A stretch of DNA of 64,000 nucleotides from Natronosalvus rutilus (GCF_024204665.1 NZ_CP100355.1:1593451-1657450); one strand, 5' to 3'; counted from the stretch's first letter, positions 44,393 to 60,932 are shown. A program made the numbers and translations. The notes: generated by a model from the sequence alone, not told the origin.

Positions 44393-46084
44393 CTACGACG
44401 CTCGCGCGAGCGGCGTCAGACTCGAAGTGTTTCCGCCAGTATCGCCTTCGCTCGAGGTCGTGCCGTCAGTGTCGTTCGTTTCGTCGGTGCCGTTACTCGA
44501 CTCCGGACCCGACCCCGAACGCGCCCCGGACGCCCCGTCGTCGGCCGTCTCCTCGATCACGTACTGCTGACCGAGCATCGGGTCGAGCAACTCGTTGACC
44601 GCCGCCCGGTCGTCGGTGAGCACCGGCACGTCGTTGGTGTTCGGTTCGGCCATGTAGTTCTCAATCTCCCCGGAGAGGTCGATCGGGAGGCCGGTGTTCC
44701 GGTTTCGCGCCTGGAGGTCGGCTTCCGAGTAGCGCGTGGCGTTCTTGGTCGCGACAACCTGGATATTCTGGACTGCTCCGGTATCGGACGTACGGAAGCT
44801 GTACACCTGCGGGAAGACCTCGTCCATGGTCGCGTACTCGGCGCGATAGAACTGTGAGGCCGGGCCGCTGGGCGCGGAGATGACGTTCGAGATGAGGACG
44901 CCGTCCTCGCTCAGGTGGTCGTCGACCACTTGCATGAACTCGACGGTCGTCAACTCGAAGGGGACCTGGTCGCGCTTGAACGCGTCCAGGACGATCACGT
45001 CGTAGGTCTCGTCGCTGTTCTGGAGGAACGATCGCCCGTCTACGGTGTGGGCCTGGAGGTCCTCTGACTGCTCGAGGCCGAAGTAGGTCTCGGCAGTGGT
45101 GGTCACCTCCTCGTCGATTTCGACAACGTCGATCTTGACGTCGTACTGGCGCTCGAAGTCCTGCGGACCGGTGTAGCCGCCACCCCCGATGAACAGCACC
45201 CGGTCGACCGACTCGGGACTCTCGGCCATGAGCATCGTCAGGTGAAAGTACCGCGTGTACTCGAAGACGTGCCGGTCGGGATCGTTCAGGTCGCGCGCGC
45301 TGTGGCGCGTGTCGTCGAGGTATAGCGTTCGGACGTCGCCATTGTCGACCACCTCGAGTTGCTGGTGTGGCGTTTGGGTCTGGTAGACGACGTCGCCACG
45401 GGGGTCGAGGCCGATGGAGCTACTGGTGGCGGCACCGACCAGCAGGAGCGAGACGACGGTAACGATGGCGAGCGTCCGCCTCGACGGCCGCGGAAGCGAC
45501 ACGACGACAGCGGTTCCGACGAGCACGAACCCGAAGAAGAGGCTGATCTGCGTGATCGACAGCGACGGTATGAGCATGTACGTCGTCACGCCGGAGCCGA
45601 CGATGCTCCCGATGGTGCCGAGCGCGTACACGTGCCCGGAGGCCTCACCGATGCCCTCCTTGGCCGACAGTTCCGCCGCGTAGGGGCTGATGAACCCGAG
45701 GAGGTACGTCGGCGGCCCGAAGAGGATGATGATCGACGGGAGCGAGGCGTACCGCGGCGAGAGCGGGATGGCTGCCGTCGCGTACAGCAACATATCGCTC
45801 GTGTAGATGATGATCGCGATGTAGATTGCCGTGGCGAACAGCAACCATCGCATCTGGCTGTTCGATGCTCGCTCCGCCGCTCGCCCACCCTGCCAGTAGC
45901 CCAGACTCAGTCCGGCCAGAAAGACCGTCAGCAGGCCGCCGACCGTGTAGATGTGACTCCCGAACTGCGGTGCGACGATGCGCAGCGCGAGGATCTCGAG
46001 ACCCATGCTGACGACGCCGGAGACGAAGACGGCGAGTTCGGGTTTCGAGAATTTCGTCGACTCGAGCGCCCGTGAAACGTCCAT
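44393..46084 (-). CDS. Membrane-fused spermidine-synthase-like protein
   Basis: The 563-residue protein combines an N-terminal set of about six membrane helices (residues 15-230) with a C-terminal Rossmann domain of the spermidine synthase family. The latter has VLFIGGGGYTGPQDF, VDVVEIDEEV-like acidic binding and DVIVLDAFKRDQVPF. The substrate-binding Asp of true SpeE is partly retained, so aminopropyl transfer is possible but not certain. The C-terminus is a Gly/Ser/Asp-rich tail. It follows four hyperacidic genes on the same strand with a 53-nt gap and may share their transcript. Confidence 0.85.
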   Translation of the reverse strand: MDVSRALESTKFSKPELAVFVSGVVSMGLEILALRIVAPQFGSHIYTVGGLLTVFLAGLSLGYWQGGRAAERASNSQMRWLLFATAIYIAIIIYTSDMLLYATAAIPLSPRYASLPSIIILFGPPTYLLGFISPYAAELSAKEGIGEASGHVYALGTIGSIVGSGVTTYMLIPSLSITQISLFFGFVLVGTAVVVSLPRPSRRTLAIVTVVSLLLVGAATSSSIGLDPRGDVVYQTQTPHQQLEVVDNGDVRTLYLDDTRHSARDLNDPDRHVFEYTRYFHLTMLMAESPESVDRVLFIGGGGYTGPQDFERQYDVKIDVVEIDEEVTTTAETYFGLEQSEDLQAHTVDGRSFLQNSDETYDVIVLDAFKRDQVPFELTTVEFMQVVDDHLSEDGVLISNVISAPSGPASQFYRAEYATMDEVFPQVYSFRTSDTGAVQNIQVVATKNATRYSEADLQARNRNTGLPIDLSGEIENYMAEPNTNDVPVLTDDRAAVNELLDPMLGQQYVIEETADDGASGARSGSGPESSNGTDETNDTDGTTSSEGDTGGNTSSLTPLARAS

Positions 46085-46137: not shown

Positions 46138-47319
46138 TCAGTTTCGTTTCGGCATCGTCGAGTGACGAGTCGTCGCCTTCATGTCCGCCCGTTTCGAGGG
46201 CGAGCGGGCGACGGTCGAGTACATCGTCCCGCGCCTGCGGCGGCTGCTCGAGCCGCCGAAGGGGCCGCCGTCGTCTCCGGTGCTCAGGAGGCTGTCATCT
46301 TCGTCTTCGTCTTCTTCGGCGTCGTCGGCCTCGTCTCTTTCATCGCCGTTCTCCTCGTCGGTATCGTCTCCATTTGCCTCCTCGTCCTCAGTATCTGCTT
46401 CGTCCTCGGCATCCGCCTCCTTGTCGTCACCGAGCCCCGCTGCCTCGAGCCCCGCTTTCAGGGATTCGACTTCGTCACCGAACCCGCCGACTGCATCCTT
46501 GAGCGCAGACGAAATGGAGTCCTCGAGGTCGCTGTCGCCGTCAGTTTCGTCGGCCTCGTCAGTTTCGTCGCTGTCAGTCTCGTCAGTGGCTTCCGCTGGT
46601 TCACTATCGGACTCCGACGTGGATTCCTCGCTTTCGTCCGTCTCGTCTTCGTCCTTCTGATCCGCTTCGCCTTCCTCGTCCATCTCGTCTTCGCCCGACT
46701 CGTCCTCGTCCGTCTCGTCTCCAGCCGCTTCACCCTCCTCCTCGTCGGGTTCATCGGCGTCGTCGCTCGCCTCGGTGTCGGCCTCGCTGGCCTCCTCGTC
46801 ACCCGTCTCGACCGCGACGCTCTTCGTGAGGAGGCCGTACAGATCCAGCACCGTCTCCTCGAGCGAGTCCGCGTCGTCCAGGTCGGGATCTGAATCGGGA
46901 TCGGGGTCAGCGAGCGAGGCCAACCGCTGGAGAGCCCGCAGCGTGGCGACCTGGCCAGGGTCGCCGTTCGCGATCGCCTCCGGGAGCGACGACGGGGCGG
47001 AGCCGTCGGGAAGCGTATCCAGGCCGACGCGCTCGAGCAGCGACTGGACGTCACCCTCCTCGACGAGTTCGTGTGCTTCCTCCGCGAGCGACGGCAGGTC
47101 GGTAGACGAAATCGGCTCTGGAAGACCGTCCTGGGCGCCACCTTCGAGGTCGGCGGTCAGTTCGAGTGGTCGCCTCTCGTCACCACCGTCACCGCCGTCA
47201 CCGCCGGCCTCGTCGTCCGCATCGCTTTCGTCCGCCGTCTCGCGGATACCGAGGTCGTCGAGCGCCGCTCGAGCGTTGGTCAATAGTTTCGTGATGCGGT
47301 CGTCCGTTTCTGTAGTCAT
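46138..47319 (-). CDS. Hyperacidic protein with short helices and a basic C-terminal tail
   Basis: The 393-residue protein starts at ATG 47319. The first 170 residues contain predicted helices (DRITKLLTNARAALDDLG, LPSLAEEAHELVEEGDVQSLLERVGL, DSLEETVLDLYGLLTKSVAV), followed by a roughly 100-residue Glu/Asp/Ser run, a helix LEDSISSALKDAVGGFGDEVESLKAGLEAAGLG, a second acidic run and finally a basic tail (SSRRRRGTMYST ... MPKRN). No family is recognised. The acid-to-base switch at the C-terminus is unusual for a halophile protein. It is fourth in the acidic cluster. Confidence 0.75.
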   Translation of the reverse strand: MTTETDDRITKLLTNARAALDDLGIRETADESDADDEAGGDGGDGGDERRPLELTADLEGGAQDGLPEPISSTDLPSLAEEAHELVEEGDVQSLLERVGLDTLPDGSAPSSLPEAIANGDPGQVATLRALQRLASLADPDPDSDPDLDDADSLEETVLDLYGLLTKSVAVETGDEEASEADTEASDDADEPDEEEGEAAGDETDEDESGEDEMDEEGEADQKDEDETDESEESTSESDSEPAEATDETDSDETDEADETDGDSDLEDSISSALKDAVGGFGDEVESLKAGLEAAGLGDDKEADAEDEADTEDEEANGDDTDEENGDERDEADDAEEDEDEDDSLLSTGDDGGPFGGSSSRRRRGTMYSTVARSPSKRADMKATTRHSTMPKRN

Positions 47320-47340
47320 GGGTAATACGCTCCGTTCCGG

Positions 47341-48021
47341 TCAGGTTTCGTCCTCGAGCACGGCGTCGACGATCTGCTCGCGCATTTCATCACCTTTGAG
47401 GTTCGCCTTCACGCCGACGTCCTTCGCGACCGACTGGAGGTCCCGGTAGGAGAGCATCTCCAGGACGTCCTCGAGGGTCTCCCGGCGCAGGTCCTCGAGC
47501 GTGTCGAGGGAGGGTGGACCGTTCTCGACGATCGCTTCGGTGTCCGTTTCTGTCTCTCCTTCTTCGCCCGAATCGGATTCTCCGTCCTCGGTCGTGGAGT
47601 CGTCGGATTCGTCCCCCTCCTCGCCCTCGTCGGACTCCTCGAGCGCGTCGTCGGTAGCGCTCTCCTCCTTCGCGTCGCCTTCCGCCTCACCGGCGGCGAC
47701 TCGTTCGGCCAACCCCTCCTGGCCGAACTCCTCGAGCCAGGCGGCGATCGCGTTCCGGAGCGACACGACGAGTTCCTCGAGGAACGTCCGGAGGCTCAGG
47801 CCCTCTTCGATCGCGTCGGTAGCCGTCTCCTGGATCGCCCCGCCGAGGCGTTCGCCGATCGAACGACCGAACCGCTCGCCGATTCGGGCGCCGGCGGCGG
47901 CGCCGATTTCGCCGGCCTCGAGTTCGTCGCCGACGCCGTCTCCGTTGATGACGGACTCGATGTCGACGTAGTCGAGGGCTTCCTCGACGACGATTTCCTG
48001 CAGTGTGGGGTCGTCGCTCAT
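47341..48021 (-). CDS. Acidic glycine-zipper protein with SAP/Rho_N-like C-terminal motif
   Basis: The 226-residue protein starts at ATG 48021 behind a GGAGG site. Residues about 30-65 form a helix with glycine every fourth position (IGAAAGARIGERFGRSIGER), six in a row, matching a block in the next gene upstream. Then come SLRTFLEELVVSLRNAIAAWLEEF and a Glu/Ser/Asp linker. The C-terminal ~55 residues (ETLEDVLEMLSYRDLQSVAKDVGVKANLKGDEMREQIV) resemble SAP/Rho_N nucleic-acid-binding helices. Function unknown. Confidence 0.75.
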   Translation of the reverse strand: MSDDPTLQEIVVEEALDYVDIESVINGDGVGDELEAGEIGAAAGARIGERFGRSIGERLGGAIQETATDAIEEGLSLRTFLEELVVSLRNAIAAWLEEFGQEGLAERVAAGEAEGDAKEESATDDALEESDEGEEGDESDDSTTEDGESDSGEEGETETDTEAIVENGPPSLDTLEDLRRETLEDVLEMLSYRDLQSVAKDVGVKANLKGDEMREQIVDAVLEDET

Positions 48022-48127
48022 TCAGATCCCTCCGTGGCCGGCGCGACGGTTGTTGATCCGCTTCTTTCGTCGATCCGCCTCGAGTGGCAGTTGCCCTCGA
48101 GTCGTCCGCTGATCACGGGGGGGTTCG

Positions 48128-48619
48128 TCACGACTCGTCATTTTCGTCAGTGGCGTCAGCGTCGTCCTCGTTGTCTTCGCTATCCTCGCTACCCTCGCCG
48201 TCCTCACTGCCCCCGTCTGCTTCGCCGTCATCGCTGTCTTCGCCGCCCTCACTCTCCTCACCCGTCGACTCCTCGTCTGACTCGCCGGCTTCACCACCGT
48301 CTTCATCGTTCTCACCGTCGGCCGCCTCGTCCGATTCGGCCTCGTCTTCCGCCGACTCGTCAGCGTCGTCCGTCTCCTCGGATTCCTCCTCGTCGCTCTC
48401 GAGGATCGAATCCACGAGGACGTCGCCGAGCAGTCGGCCGACCTCCTTGCCGACCGTCCGACCGACTGTCGCACCGATGAGTCCGCCTAACTCGGGCCCG
48501 ATCGGTTCTTCCGAGTCGAACTCGTCCTCGAGGGAGGTGCCCTCGAGCAGCGATTCGAAGTCAATGCCGTCGATGATCTCGTCCACGTCGACGCGTTGGG
48601 TCAGTGTGTCGTCGGTCAT
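48128..48619 (-). CDS. Acidic glycine-zipper protein
   Basis: The 163-residue protein starts at ATG 48619, overlapping the previous gene by ATGA. Residues about 8-72 contain IDFESLLEGTSLEDEF, then a helix with glycine every four residues (IGPELGGLIGATVGRTVGKE), like the next protein in the cluster. The last ~95 residues are nearly all Glu, Asp, Gly and Ser, probably disordered. The shared IDxES...IG-x3-G block with 47341-48021 indicates a common origin. No known domain. Confidence 0.75.
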   Translation of the reverse strand: MTDDTLTQRVDVDEIIDGIDFESLLEGTSLEDEFDSEEPIGPELGGLIGATVGRTVGKEVGRLLGDVLVDSILESDEEESEETDDADESAEDEAESDEAADGENDEDGGEAGESDEESTGEESEGGEDSDDGEADGGSEDGEGSEDSEDNEDDADATDENDES

Positions 48620-49689
48620 GCAGTTGCCTCCGCTTCCTGCTCCTGCTCCTGATCCTGGTCCTGACTCCCCTCTTCGTCATCCGATTCCTCGGCGCTCTCG
48701 TCGCCGTCGCCTTCCGACGCGGCTTCCAGCCGTTCGATCACCTGCTCGAGGACCGACCGGACGATCGTCGCGAGTACCTTCTCAATCGGCAGCGAGGAGA
48801 TGGCTCGCTCGAGCGGGTTGCGAAGGGTGTCGACGATCGAACGGCCGATGCCGCGGAACCAGTCGGCGATCGAAGAGAGGACGCCGCCCTCGCTTTCCTC
48901 GCCGTCCTCGGCTTCCTCGTCTTCGTCGCCGTCACCCTCGCCCGAACCGATTCCGGGCAGGAGTCCGCCGAGTCGGTCCCGCAGTCCGCCGAGGAGACCG
49001 GTCGCGGCGCTCTTGAGCCCGCCTGGGATCTTCCCGAGTGCGTTCGAGATGCTCTCGAGCGGCGACCCCAGGCTATCGAGGAGGCCAGTTACCGACGACA
49101 ACAGGTTACCGAGAAGGTTGTTGTCGCCCGGTCGGGCCGAGACGTCGAGGGTCACTTCGTTCAGGTTCACCTCGAGCCCGAGGACGTCCAGAAAGAGGCC
49201 GTCCAGGTCGAGGTGAGCGACGCCGGTGGCGTCCTCGCTCTCGTAGACCTCCTCGGCGTCGCGGTCGTGTTCTTCGCCGGGTTCCTCGCTCTCGCCTCCC
49301 GCTTCTTCCTCTCCCTCGCTCTCGCCGTCACCCTCGTCCGCTTCGTCGCCTTCACCGTCACCGTTTTCGGATTCTTCGTCGTCGTCAGCCGAACCGTCCT
49401 GATCCTCGGAGTCGTCGGGTTCTCCGTTGTCAGTCTCTTCGTCGGCGCTTTCGGACTCGTCCGCCGCGTCGCTCGAGTCATCGTCGTCTTCGGAATCTGC
49501 GGTTCCGTCGTCGGAACCGGAAGAGTCGTCTGTCTTTGTCTCTGCTTCGCCGCCGTCCGGTAGGAGCGTCCTGGGCTCGTCGCCCTCCTCGGCGAGGGTG
49601 ACGGCCGACGGATCACGGCCGACGTCACCCCTCGAGGTCTCGCGCTCGGCGGACGGCCTGTCATCTCGACTGTGTTTCTGGGCGACCAT
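48616..49689 (-). CDS. Large hyperacidic protein with a Leu/Gly-rich domain, first of the cluster
   Basis: The ATG at 49689 gives 357 residues. A TATA-like GTATATC lies about 25 nt upstream, so the transcript is probably leaderless. After about 130 acidic residues comes AHLDLDGLFLDVLGLEVNLNEVTLDVSARPGDNNLLGNLLSS and GLLGGLRDRLGGLLPG. This resembles a sequence type seen in bacterial and haloarchaeal proteins of unknown function (recalled, not searched). A second helical region (GGVLSSIADWFRGIGRSIVDTL, then LATIVRSVLEQVIERLEAA) precedes an acidic tail with QDQDQEQEQE. It is upstream of the other cluster genes and overlaps the next by ATGA. Confidence 0.75.
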   Translation of the reverse strand: MVAQKHSRDDRPSAERETSRGDVGRDPSAVTLAEEGDEPRTLLPDGGEAETKTDDSSGSDDGTADSEDDDDSSDAADESESADEETDNGEPDDSEDQDGSADDDEESENGDGEGDEADEGDGESEGEEEAGGESEEPGEEHDRDAEEVYESEDATGVAHLDLDGLFLDVLGLEVNLNEVTLDVSARPGDNNLLGNLLSSVTGLLDSLGSPLESISNALGKIPGGLKSAATGLLGGLRDRLGGLLPGIGSGEGDGDEDEEAEDGEESEGGVLSSIADWFRGIGRSIVDTLRNPLERAISSLPIEKVLATIVRSVLEQVIERLEAASEGDGDESAEESDDEEGSQDQDQEQEQEAEATA

Positions 49690-49843
49690 GATAGTATCCG
49701 TGAAGATATACAATGATCTCGCCCGTGTCATTTGGCCTTGCGTGTGCTATCCGCCGACGAGCGATGAACGTTGAGGACGAGCGGTGGACGGAACCTCGAG
49801 TGTCGAAGCATCCGGCAGCGACACCAGGAGAGCGACCTCGGCC
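49690..49843. promoter_or_regulatory. Promoter region of the acidic cluster
   Basis: The 154 nt between the acidic cluster start and the response regulator end include an AT-rich TATA-like GTATATC near 49709-49715, about 25 nt before ATG 49689. I see nothing else. Confidence 0.45.
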
Positions 49844-57056: not shown

Positions 57057-57465
57057 ACCTCTGTGGAGGAGAGTCGGCGGTTTAGTGGTTGTCGTTCTTG
57101 TTCGTACGCGCGGGGCGGTGTCGAGGCGAGTGTGAGCTGGTTCGTCGGCTGGTCGGAGACGGTGGGAAGCGCCGAAACCGAAAAATCCCGGACTGTTTCA
57201 CCGGGTAATTCTCGAGTACGTACGAACGTTCCGGACGGAAAACGGCGGTATCGAGACGAGCCCATCGACGCACACGGCCCAAATCGACGGTAACGAGCCA
57301 TTATTCGCGTGCCAGTCCGATGGTCGATCGTCTCTGAAACTCTTCGAACCACGACTAATCGTTCAAAAATACGTGAACGAACCCAACAGTTCGAAGTAAA
57401 CTACGTAAATTTAATGAGTGTGATAAGAAAAAGTTTATGTGCGAAAGGCGGGGTTACGCAAGTGC
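57057..57465. promoter_or_regulatory. AT-rich intergenic region upstream of the exported beta-helix gene
   Basis: The 409 nt between MfnA and the beta-helix protein are progressively AT-rich toward the second gene (TAAACTACGTAAATTTAATG near 57400). They contain a TATA-like AAGTTTATG about 31 nt upstream of ATG 57466. I see no other gene. Confidence 0.45.
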
Positions 57466-58416
57466 ATGGCGCAGAAGTCCCCCACTACCGACGTTGAATC
57501 TTCGACTACCCTTCGAAACTCACTGGTAAGCCGTCGTTCCTACGTTCGATCGATCGCGACGGCCGCGGTCGCAGCGGGCGTCTTCGGTGGCGTTGCTGAC
57601 GCCGCGGCGGCAGAGAGCGACTACGAAACAGTGACCCTCGACCCCGGCGAGGACCACCAGGTCACCGTCGGAGATGGCGAGACGCTCGAGAACGTCCTGT
57701 TCGACTGTACGGCTGAGGGCGCGCGCGTAACCATCGCGGCCCACGCGACCGACTGGACGATCCGCAACGTCGGTATCAAGGGTGAGTTCGACGTTGGAAG
57801 CCCCGACGCAGCCTTCGGGATTTCCGACCAGGGTGGCAATACCTCGACCATCGAAAACGTGTACGTGGCCGACGGTGCGATTCACGGCTCGGAAGCCACC
57901 GACGAGACCGCCTTCTGGGTGTCTCCTGAGCACAGCGGCCACATCGACTTCAAGAACGTCAACGTCCAGAACTTCCCGGACAACGGCATCTACGCCTCCG
58001 CGCCGGCCGGCAAGGGTGGCGGCACGATCCACATCGACGAGTGCTACGCCGCGAACAACTACGTGGCGAACTTCCGAATCGGCTCGGCGGGCAGCGCCGT
58101 CACGAACTCGAGCGTCCAGGTCGACCGCGACGGCTACGGCGGCCGCGGCATCTGGGTGTGGGCGCCCGGCGAGTGCGAGATCGACAACTGCCAGCTCAAG
58201 CTCGGCGGCCACAACTACGCGATCGACGCGGGCGCGAACGGGAGCGGGACGTCGGTGACAGTGACCGACACCGACTACAGCACGGACTTCCACGGCGGGG
58301 TCAACGAGACTGCCGGCTCGAGCGTCGACTTCGGCGACGGCGTTGGGAACGACCCCGAGCCGACGATTCCCGACGGCGTCCCCGAGACGGCCGAGGACGC
58401 GGCGAGCGGGAACTGA
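57466..58416 (+). CDS. Tat-exported beta-helix (pectate-lyase-like) protein
   Basis: The 316-residue protein has a twin-arginine signal (VSRRSYVRSIATAAVAAGVF, about residues 21-40). The secreted part begins ESDYETVTLDPGEDHQVTVGDGETLENVLFD, then TIRNVGIKGEF, HIDFKNVNVQNF and GGRGIWVWAPGECEIDNC, which recur as strand-turn units of a right-handed beta-helix. No catalytic residues are evident, so sugar binding or structure is possible. The next gene is a longer paralog with about the same N-terminal half. It probably works outside the cell. Confidence 0.85.
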   Translation: MAQKSPTTDVESSTTLRNSLVSRRSYVRSIATAAVAAGVFGGVADAAAAESDYETVTLDPGEDHQVTVGDGETLENVLFDCTAEGARVTIAAHATDWTIRNVGIKGEFDVGSPDAAFGISDQGGNTSTIENVYVADGAIHGSEATDETAFWVSPEHSGHIDFKNVNVQNFPDNGIYASAPAGKGGGTIHIDECYAANNYVANFRIGSAGSAVTNSSVQVDRDGYGGRGIWVWAPGECEIDNCQLKLGGHNYAIDAGANGSGTSVTVTDTDYSTDFHGGVNETAGSSVDFGDGVGNDPEPTIPDGVPETAEDAASGN

Positions 58417-58868: not shown

Positions 58869-60932
58869 ATGGCACGCGACTCTTCGGTACTGGATGACGA
58901 TTCGGCTGCGGGACACGACGGGAACGTCCCGCGAGACGGTAATACCACGTTACTCGATCGACGAAGCTACCTCAAGCTCGCGTCCGCGAGCGCGGTGGCG
59001 GGTCCGGCACTCGCAGCCGCCACCGGCAACGCCGCGGCAGCCGACCACGACGTGATCACGGTCCCCGCAGGACAACGTGAAGTGATCCGCGTCGAGTCGA
59101 ACGAGACGCTCGAGAACACGCTCGTCGACGTCACCGCCGACGGGGCAACGGTCACTATCGCCGCCCACGGCACGAACTGGACGATCCGAAACGTCGGGAT
59201 CAAGGGCCGCGTCACGAGCGAGAACGCCGTCTTCGGTATCTCCGATCGCCAGGGTGGCACCTCCAGAATCGAGAACGTCTACCTGGGCGACGGCGCCACG
59301 GACGGCCACCGCCACGGCGTCGGTCTGTGGGTCGCCCCCCAGCACAGCGGCCACATCGAGATCGACCGCGTGAATATCTCCGAGATGGGCGACAACTCGT
59401 TTTACTGCTCCGCGCCGGGATACAACGGCGCCGGCGGAACGGTCGACATCTCGAACTGTTACTCCCGGGACTCCTGGGTCGCTCACTTCCGACTCGGCGA
59501 GGGGACGGTCACGAACTGCACGGCCGTGAACACGGGCGCGCACAAGGACGGCCGCGGCATCTGGGCCTGGGCCCCCGGCGACGTCGTCGTGCAGGACTGC
59601 AACCTCGCGATGAACGGCCGGCACTACTCGGTCGTCGTCGGTGCCAACGGCGGCTCCTCCACCGTTCGGATGGAGAACACGCAGTACGACACCGGCTACA
59701 GCGGGGGCTTCAGACGAGCAGGAGGCTCGATCGACCTCGAGTCGGGCAACGGCACGTCGCCCGAGGACGTCGTTCCCGAGGGCTGTCCGACCAGCGCGGA
59801 GGCGGCCGCGTCGGGAAACGCGACCGGCGGTGAGAGCCGTATCGTATCCGCGACCGACCAGCGCGACTCGGCTGACCTCCCCAACGTCATCGTCTTCGAC
59901 GGCCGCGACGCGTCCACGGCGACCACCGACTACGCGTTCACCGTGACCGGCGACCTCGAGTCGTCCACGGACGAGGGGGCGACGATCGACGAGGAATCGA
60001 CGGTCGACGGGTCAAGCGCCGAGGGCATCGTCGCGAACTACCTCGACGCCTACCGCTTCGACGGTGAACTCGAGAGCCTCCAGCTCGACGGGGACGCCGC
60101 GGTTCGCGTCAACGGCGTCGAGATCGACCCCAGCGAGTTCGACGACCGCCCCGAGAACGTGCTCCTCGTCGAGGGCGCGGACGCGGACGTCACCCGCTAC
60201 GAGTTCGTCGTCGACGGCGAGGTCGTCCCGTCGAATTACGAGAGAGCGACGATCGACGACGCCGACGCAATTACGGACGGTCACGTCCACGGAACCGTCG
60301 CGAACTGGAAGGACGCGTTCCGCTTCGACGGCGACCTCGAGCAGCTGACCGTCGACGGCCCCGGTGCCGTTTCCCTCAACGGCGAGGAAGTCGACCCCGG
60401 CGAGTACGGCGAGGATCTGCCGAACGTCCTCGAGATCGAGGGCACCGGCGAGCCCGCGAGCTACGAAGTCACGGTCGAGGGAACGATCGCGTACGAGGGC
60501 GACGACGACGAGGTGACGGTCCGCTCGGGAACGACCGTTCAGAGCTCGATCCTCGAAGGCAGCCAGCGCTACCGGTTCTCCGGTGCACTCACCGACGTGA
60601 CCTTCACAGACGGTGCGGCGGCGGTTCGGCTTAACGACGAGACGGTCGATCCCGACGAGACCGGCGACGACGAACTCCTCCCCCACGTGTTCGTCGTCGA
60701 CGGGACGAACGCCGATGGTCCGTCGACGTACTCCCTCCAGGTGGACGGGTGCGTTCGCAAGGCCGACTATCGAAACGCCTCGGTCGACGAGGGCGACCTG
60801 CTCGAGGACCGTACCGTCCGCGGCGCCGTCGGCAACTGGCTCGACGCCTACTGGTTCGACGGCGACCTCGAGGACTTCACGCTACTCGGCGACGCCGAGG
60901 TCGACGTCGTCTACAACGCTCGGGACCAGTAA
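58869..60932 (+). CDS. Tat-exported beta-helix protein with four C-terminal repeats
   Basis: The 687-residue protein has a twin-arginine signal at residues about 31-48 (RRSYLKLASASAVAG) and an N-terminal half (about 60-315) closely matching the neighbouring 316-residue protein: TWTIRNVGIKG-type units, QHSGHIEI and GRGIWAWAPGDVVVQDC. Residues about 337-423, 427-513, 516-600 and 603-687 are four diverged copies of a ~85-residue module (LPNVIVFDG, then a VDG/VTG strand, DAYRFDGELESLQLDG and VNGVEIDP). The repeats may bind carbohydrate or a cell-surface partner (inference). Confidence 0.85.
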   Translation: MARDSSVLDDDSAAGHDGNVPRDGNTTLLDRRSYLKLASASAVAGPALAAATGNAAAADHDVITVPAGQREVIRVESNETLENTLVDVTADGATVTIAAHGTNWTIRNVGIKGRVTSENAVFGISDRQGGTSRIENVYLGDGATDGHRHGVGLWVAPQHSGHIEIDRVNISEMGDNSFYCSAPGYNGAGGTVDISNCYSRDSWVAHFRLGEGTVTNCTAVNTGAHKDGRGIWAWAPGDVVVQDCNLAMNGRHYSVVVGANGGSSTVRMENTQYDTGYSGGFRRAGGSIDLESGNGTSPEDVVPEGCPTSAEAAASGNATGGESRIVSATDQRDSADLPNVIVFDGRDASTATTDYAFTVTGDLESSTDEGATIDEESTVDGSSAEGIVANYLDAYRFDGELESLQLDGDAAVRVNGVEIDPSEFDDRPENVLLVEGADADVTRYEFVVDGEVVPSNYERATIDDADAITDGHVHGTVANWKDAFRFDGDLEQLTVDGPGAVSLNGEEVDPGEYGEDLPNVLEIEGTGEPASYEVTVEGTIAYEGDDDEVTVRSGTTVQSSILEGSQRYRFSGALTDVTFTDGAAAVRLNDETVDPDETGDDELLPHVFVVDGTNADGPSTYSLQVDGCVRKADYRNASVDEGDLLEDRTVRGAVGNWLDAYWFDGDLEDFTLLGDAEVDVVYNARDQ

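Follow-up and report, generated by a model that had tools for sequence, protein, structure and literature searches.

A candidate accessory module of GvpC-less haloarchaeal gas vesicles encoded by a conserved four-gene unit

In Halobacterium, loss of GvpC results in weak, irregular gas vesicles, and loss of GvpI results in very long ones (PMC7688916, PMC4390858). The partners of GvpI are GvpH, GvpF and GvpL, and GvpA is not bound directly (PMC7688916, PMC9372576). Vac regions without gvpC and gvpDE are already known (PMC4390858, PMC3403918); the second of these publications, the Natrialba magadii genome paper, notes that the GvpI homologue is long and that GvpC, GvpD and GvpE are missing (PMC3403918). 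According to a 2015 review, the named gvpC-less species form no visible vesicles, so that the function of GvpC-less gvp sets is unobserved (PMC4390858). A table in a 2022 review credits gvpC to some of those same species (PMC9501494).

The locus described here lies in a window of 64,000 nucleotides (the whole stretch of Natronosalvus rutilus DNA that was analysed) and consists of four consecutive minus-strand genes at 46138-49689, for which an earlier note, made from the DNA alone, had the coordinates and strand correct.

48616-49689, minus strand: g1, 357 aa; acidic linker, conserved 58-residue core and two C-terminal helices
48128-48619, minus strand: g2, 163 aa; glycine-zipper block and acidic tail
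47341-48021, minus strand: g3, 226 aa; glycine-zipper block, acidic linker and SAP-like three-helix domain
46138-47319, minus strand: g4, 393 aa; acidic GvpI-like paralogue, on the basis of HHalign
49705-49713, minus strand: TATA-like TTGTATATC 5' of g1, a putative promoter read from the sequence

The products are very acidic, as had been noticed, with Asp and Glu making up 31, 43, 31 and 35% of g1, g2, g3 and g4, respectively, and g1 and g2 do overlap by ATGA (48616-48619). The leaderless start proposed for g1 is not established: a TATA-like element is situated ~20 nt 5' of the ATG at 49689, a spacing slightly shorter than usual for leaderless haloarchaeal genes. The g1 start at 49689 (MVAQKHS) is preserved in the near relative G007, and g1-g4 are under purifying selection, with dN/dS values of 0.23-0.35 for the four genes against the same relative. 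Searches of Pfam, NCBIfam and the PDB with g1-g4 gave no match above the cut-off.

The order and strand of g1-g2-g3-g4 are kept in ~30 other Natrialbaceae genomes, and the same order is present in named Natrinema, Natrialba, Natronorubrum, Halopiger and Natronococcus. Among the 61 genomes nearest to the window, g3 is present in most members of the family; a first contig scan with g3 as the sole query found nothing. An apparent exception (G267) retains g2-g4 and has lost only g1. The genes for the spermidine-synthase-like protein and the receiver, which had been listed as neighbours of the set, do not belong to it. Together with metG they adjoin the unit only in part of the genus, and because the order of the unit is kept while its flanks differ even within the genus, both fall outside the unit, and an operon that includes them is ruled out. 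The gene downstream of g4 (window 44393-46084) encodes a fused MFS/spermidine-synthase protein (NF037959, E 1.4e-66). Elsewhere in the window, the proteins encoded at 57439-58416 and 58869-60932 resemble each other in their N-terminal parts, and both have an RRSY motif close to the start, possibly a Tat-type signal.

Two of the four proteins contain a glycine zipper.

48416-48499, minus strand: g2 glycine zipper, G41-G65, seven Gly, one per four residues
47833-47904, minus strand: g3 glycine zipper, in the AlphaFold2-predicted helix of residues 36-73, homologous to the g2 block

Glycines spaced four residues apart form runs of up to seven in g2 (G41-G65) and up to six in g3 (G40-G60). Shuffled sequences matched the run in 0 of 20,000 cases for g2 and in 1 of 20,000 for g3, and even a run of five is absent from every other called gene in the window. 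The block common to the two proteins is homologous, as BLAST with g3 retrieves g2 (E 1.4e-5) and HHalign aligns their N-terminal profiles at 97.6% (E 2.9e-12). The accompanying ID-x-ES motif is literal in g2 (IDFES), but g3 has VDIES. The AlphaFold2 model of g3 has, besides a long zipper helix (residues 36-73, with pLDDT ~79-93 from residue 41 onward), one further helix and a three-helix domain at the C-terminus that is modelled with confidence. The retained gene order, the homology of the block and the predicted zipper helix of g3 support a conserved four-gene unit with a shared structured block, as the earlier note had proposed. Of the tightly packed or membrane-inserted helices that it further suggested, membrane insertion is unsupported. 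Read from the sequence, the zipper helices are highly charged and no long hydrophobic stretch is seen in g2 or g3, and insertion into a membrane is therefore unlikely. Against the glycine-zipper outer-membrane family PF13488, g2 scores 12.1 bits, below the cut-off of 25.

No described system with this set had been recognized, but the set is found together with gas-vesicle genes and is located, in other lineages, within or beside a gvp cluster. Co-occurrence was surveyed in 293 genomes of the order, using strong matches to the g1 core and, for GvpA, PF00741. A strong g1 match is found in 99 of the 293 genomes; GvpA is present in 98 of these 99, as compared with 24 of the 194 genomes without g1 (Fisher p 2e-53, kinship ignored). 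The association is observed both inside the family (p 1e-6) and outside it (p 6e-30), again with kinship ignored. The sole genome with g1 and without GvpA (G120) is 70% complete and has a stop within the g1 frame. In a 27-genome MetG tree, joint absence of gvp and g1 is seen on ~4 separate branches (G001, G089, G183 and G010, the last of which is 70% complete), and the two never change in opposite directions; a sign test on this tree gives p 0.125, the pairs being too few to reach significance.

Physical linkage points the same way. Outside Natrialbaceae, g1 lies no more than 15 kb from a GvpA/J/M gene in at least 20 of 45 g1-bearing genomes, and genomes of other families carry g1 and genes resembling g2 or g3 in or adjoining the gvp cluster. 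The order on a Halocatena salina plasmid is gvpF-G-H-(g1, g2-like, GvpI-like)-J-K-L-M, with all three inserted genes annotated "hypothetical protein", and in G041 g1, g2-like and GvpI-like genes likewise lie between gvpH and gvpJ. Within the window's own genus, the unit stands beside gvpO, gvpA, F, G, J, K and L in G003 and G004. The module is not adjacent to gvp genes in the window and in nearly all Natrialbaceae. In the window's genome, the gvp set comprises gvpA, N, O and F-M and is split (G000 C1; L067:7986-8219, L068:6022-7939, L069:8623-13496): gvpA-N-O occupy one site, gvpF-M are found at a distance of ~125 kb, and a second gvpA stands by itself in a remote position.

Because g1-g4 occur almost only in genomes with GvpA, lie inside the gvp cluster in several lineages and are found where GvpC, the usual surface protein, is absent (see below), they are probably overlooked gas-vesicle parts; that they are linked to gas vesicles we hold with high confidence, and the link is strong. 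The lack of linkage in most Natrialbaceae would fit a module with no functional tie to gas vesicles, which shares lifestyle-linked gain and loss with gvp and hitch-hikes in some gvp clusters. This explanation is barely credible given that linkage recurs in several families, that Halocatena and G041 have g1 and g2-like genes within their gvpF-M operon, that g4 is a GvpI-type paralogue and that 98 of 99 genomes with g1 have GvpA.

The relation of g4 to GvpI is most apparent at its C-terminus.

46141-46227, minus strand: g4 C-terminal tail, with two ST(M/V) motifs (YSTVARSPSKRADMKATTRHSTMPKRN), common to the GvpI tail

In GvpC-less clusters, the protein encoded between gvpH and gvpJ is acidic and ~310 aa in length. 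The tail of this long GvpI-position family matches Halobacterium GvpI (hmmsearch E 4e-16 against one target; HHalign 96.5%), and g4 in turn matches the family at 99.2% (HHalign, E 6e-20). Profile comparison thus makes g4 a paralogue of this long, GvpI-like family. The direct comparison of g4 with GvpI is weak (HHalign 49%), and the ST(M/V)P repeats of the GvpI tail are present in g4. The gene does not hold the gvpH-gvpJ position but follows g3, and in the window's genome that site is occupied by another paralogue (L069:10379-11287). With 393 aa and 35% D+E, g4 does not fit the short basic Halobacterium type of GvpI. Among the few clusters compared, two GvpC-bearing gvp sets (L071:9280-9660 in G012 and L142:9427-9861) have a short basic GvpI and GvpC-less sets have a long acidic one.

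The distribution of GvpC is nearly the inverse of that of g1. Strong GvpC matches were obtained in nine genomes, all with GvpA and all without g1, g2 and g4; the profile has two rows, and its weaker matches (E 1e-6 to 6e-8) were not counted as GvpC. In a tenth genome, G061, gvpA, N and O are accompanied by a GvpC-like gene and g1 is located elsewhere, such that nine of the ten GvpC genomes lack g1 (p 9e-7 including G061, from few GvpC genomes and with kinship ignored). G061 also contains six GvpA-family matches, apparently in two gvp regions (L181:6628-9335). Within Natrialbaceae, GvpC was found only in G012 and G061, and the GvpC profile has no match in the window's genome. BLAST of Halobacterium GvpC against g1-g4 yielded no match among the matches listed. 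Both g1 and GvpC are missing from ~15 GvpA genomes, which shows that a gvp set can persist without either; these genomes, and the presence of both in G061, weaken the idea of a strict exchange of GvpC for g1. On the strength of the inverse relation, we tentatively suggest that g1-g4 might be a stand-in for GvpC. Our preferred reading, which we consider reasonably probable, is that g1-g4 constitute an accessory module of a GvpC-less haloarchaeal type of gas vesicle, probably located at the shell surface or at the assembly complex and replacing GvpC.

Species with such gvp sets are reported without visible gas vesicles (PMC4390858), and the two gene sets are kept and lost together, with g1-g4 under selection. 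Both observations would also suit a GvpA-based compartment other than a buoyancy vesicle, for which g1-g4 would provide a specific coat or cargo adaptors. We regard such a compartment as very unlikely, as the core gvp genes are present, including N, O and F-M, and the absence of vesicles in laboratory conditions may reflect silent expression. It is quite unlikely that in haloarchaea without GvpC the four proteins form a non-homologous coat (one strand-helix protein, two glycine-zipper proteins and a GvpI paralogue) around the GvpA shell, possibly of a non-classical compartment.

Conservation within g1 is concentrated in a short segment.

49063-49236, minus strand: g1 core, residues 152-209, four short strands then a helix (HLDLDGLFLDVLGLEVNLNEVTLDVSARPGDNNLLGNLLSSVTGLLDS)

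In this core, 17 of the 58 columns are invariant, and dN/dS against G007 is 0.05, as compared with 0.63 for the preceding linker. The AlphaFold2 model of g1 is of low confidence overall (mean pLDDT 54), and a fold search with g1 gave no match. Two Salipaludibacillus proteins (L130 and L136) resemble g1 in the core, at 59-63% identity, but are short and secreted, with a signal-peptide-like start, and are encoded away from gvp genes. The core itself is thus not specific to gas vesicles.

The C-terminus of g3 forms a separate predicted domain.

47350-47508, minus strand: g3 C-terminal SAP-like domain, residues 172-224, pLDDT 87-97

Its best Foldseek matches are to DEK and 3'-exonuclease structures (~1-1.7 A over 40-49 columns, E > 2), the matched parts of which are presumably SAP domains. 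The predicted g3 domain, with a three-helix arrangement like theirs, superposes plausibly on the helix-extended-helix fold of SAP domains, but the Foldseek E-values are above 2, and Pfam SAP gives no match among 41 g3 proteins. In some haloarchaea, the C-terminus of ribosomal protein uS3 is the same SAP-like end, following an acidic linker (L065:6353-7330, L066:6223-7170), and is similar in sequence to that of g3 (common end MSYRELQxLAKDVGVKANLSREEM). The matches in G044 and G046 are uS3 and not the module.

The SAP-like domain, found also at the end of uS3, could be accommodated by a module that belongs to the gas-vesicle system but functions as an assembly chaperone or regulator rather than at the shell surface. 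The zipper proteins would then hold GvpA/J/M soluble, and g4 would play the part of GvpI towards the accessory complex. Nucleic-acid binding by the SAP-like domain of g3 would tie assembly to gvp expression. The resemblance of g4 to GvpI, which binds GvpH, F and L and not GvpA directly (PMC7688916, PMC9372576), and the absence of GvpD/E from GvpC-less gvp sets (PMC4390858) are in keeping with such a role. However, the inverse relation to GvpC favours the shell surface, the Foldseek E-values for g3 are not significant and DNA binding is putative; we consider the chaperone or regulator unlikely.

If g1-g4 instead form an accessory module that replaces GvpC, g1 may bind the shell or its growing edge through the hydrophobic strand-helix core. 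The glycine-zipper helices of g2 and g3 would pack together, with the acidic tails keeping the assembly soluble in molar KCl, and g4 could use its GvpI-like tail to dock on the GvpF/H/L accessory complex. The four proteins would jointly control vesicle strength, shape or length, which elsewhere is done by GvpC and GvpI, and would do so from a module that, in the window as in most Natrialbaceae, has come apart from the gvp cluster. Such control of shape and strength where GvpC is absent is the most economical reading. In the open-licence literature, we found no report of expression, deletion or binding for g1-g4. That GvpC-less genomes carry a separate conserved module puts names to candidate genes for the missing coat and renders the question testable in Haloferax volcanii, a routine host for gvp expression. 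Should the g1-g4 proteins bind the shell, they would offer new handles for vesicle engineering in imaging and antigen display, a purpose usually served by GvpC.

Among described proteins, Halobacterium salinarum GvpI (144 aa, basic) has repeated ST(M/V)P tail motifs, as does g4. In contrast, g4 is acidic, has 393 aa, lacks the final RLYGxR part and is encoded outside the gvpF-M operon, where it accompanies g1-g3. Natrialba magadii and Haloterrigena turkmenica have a long GvpI homologue whose published description is in accord with the ~310 aa GvpI-position protein of the window's genome, of which g4 is a paralogue; it is placed in the gvp cluster, and the passage on it does not mention a separate g1-g4 unit (PMC3403918). 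Haloarchaeal GvpC has helical repeats, whereas g1 has a strand-helix core and g2 and g3 have glycine zippers, and no sequence similarity of g1-g4 to GvpC appears among the BLAST matches listed. GvpC and the module are alike in having an acidic region, in being non-GvpA components of the same system and in the near-exclusive occurrence of GvpC and g1.
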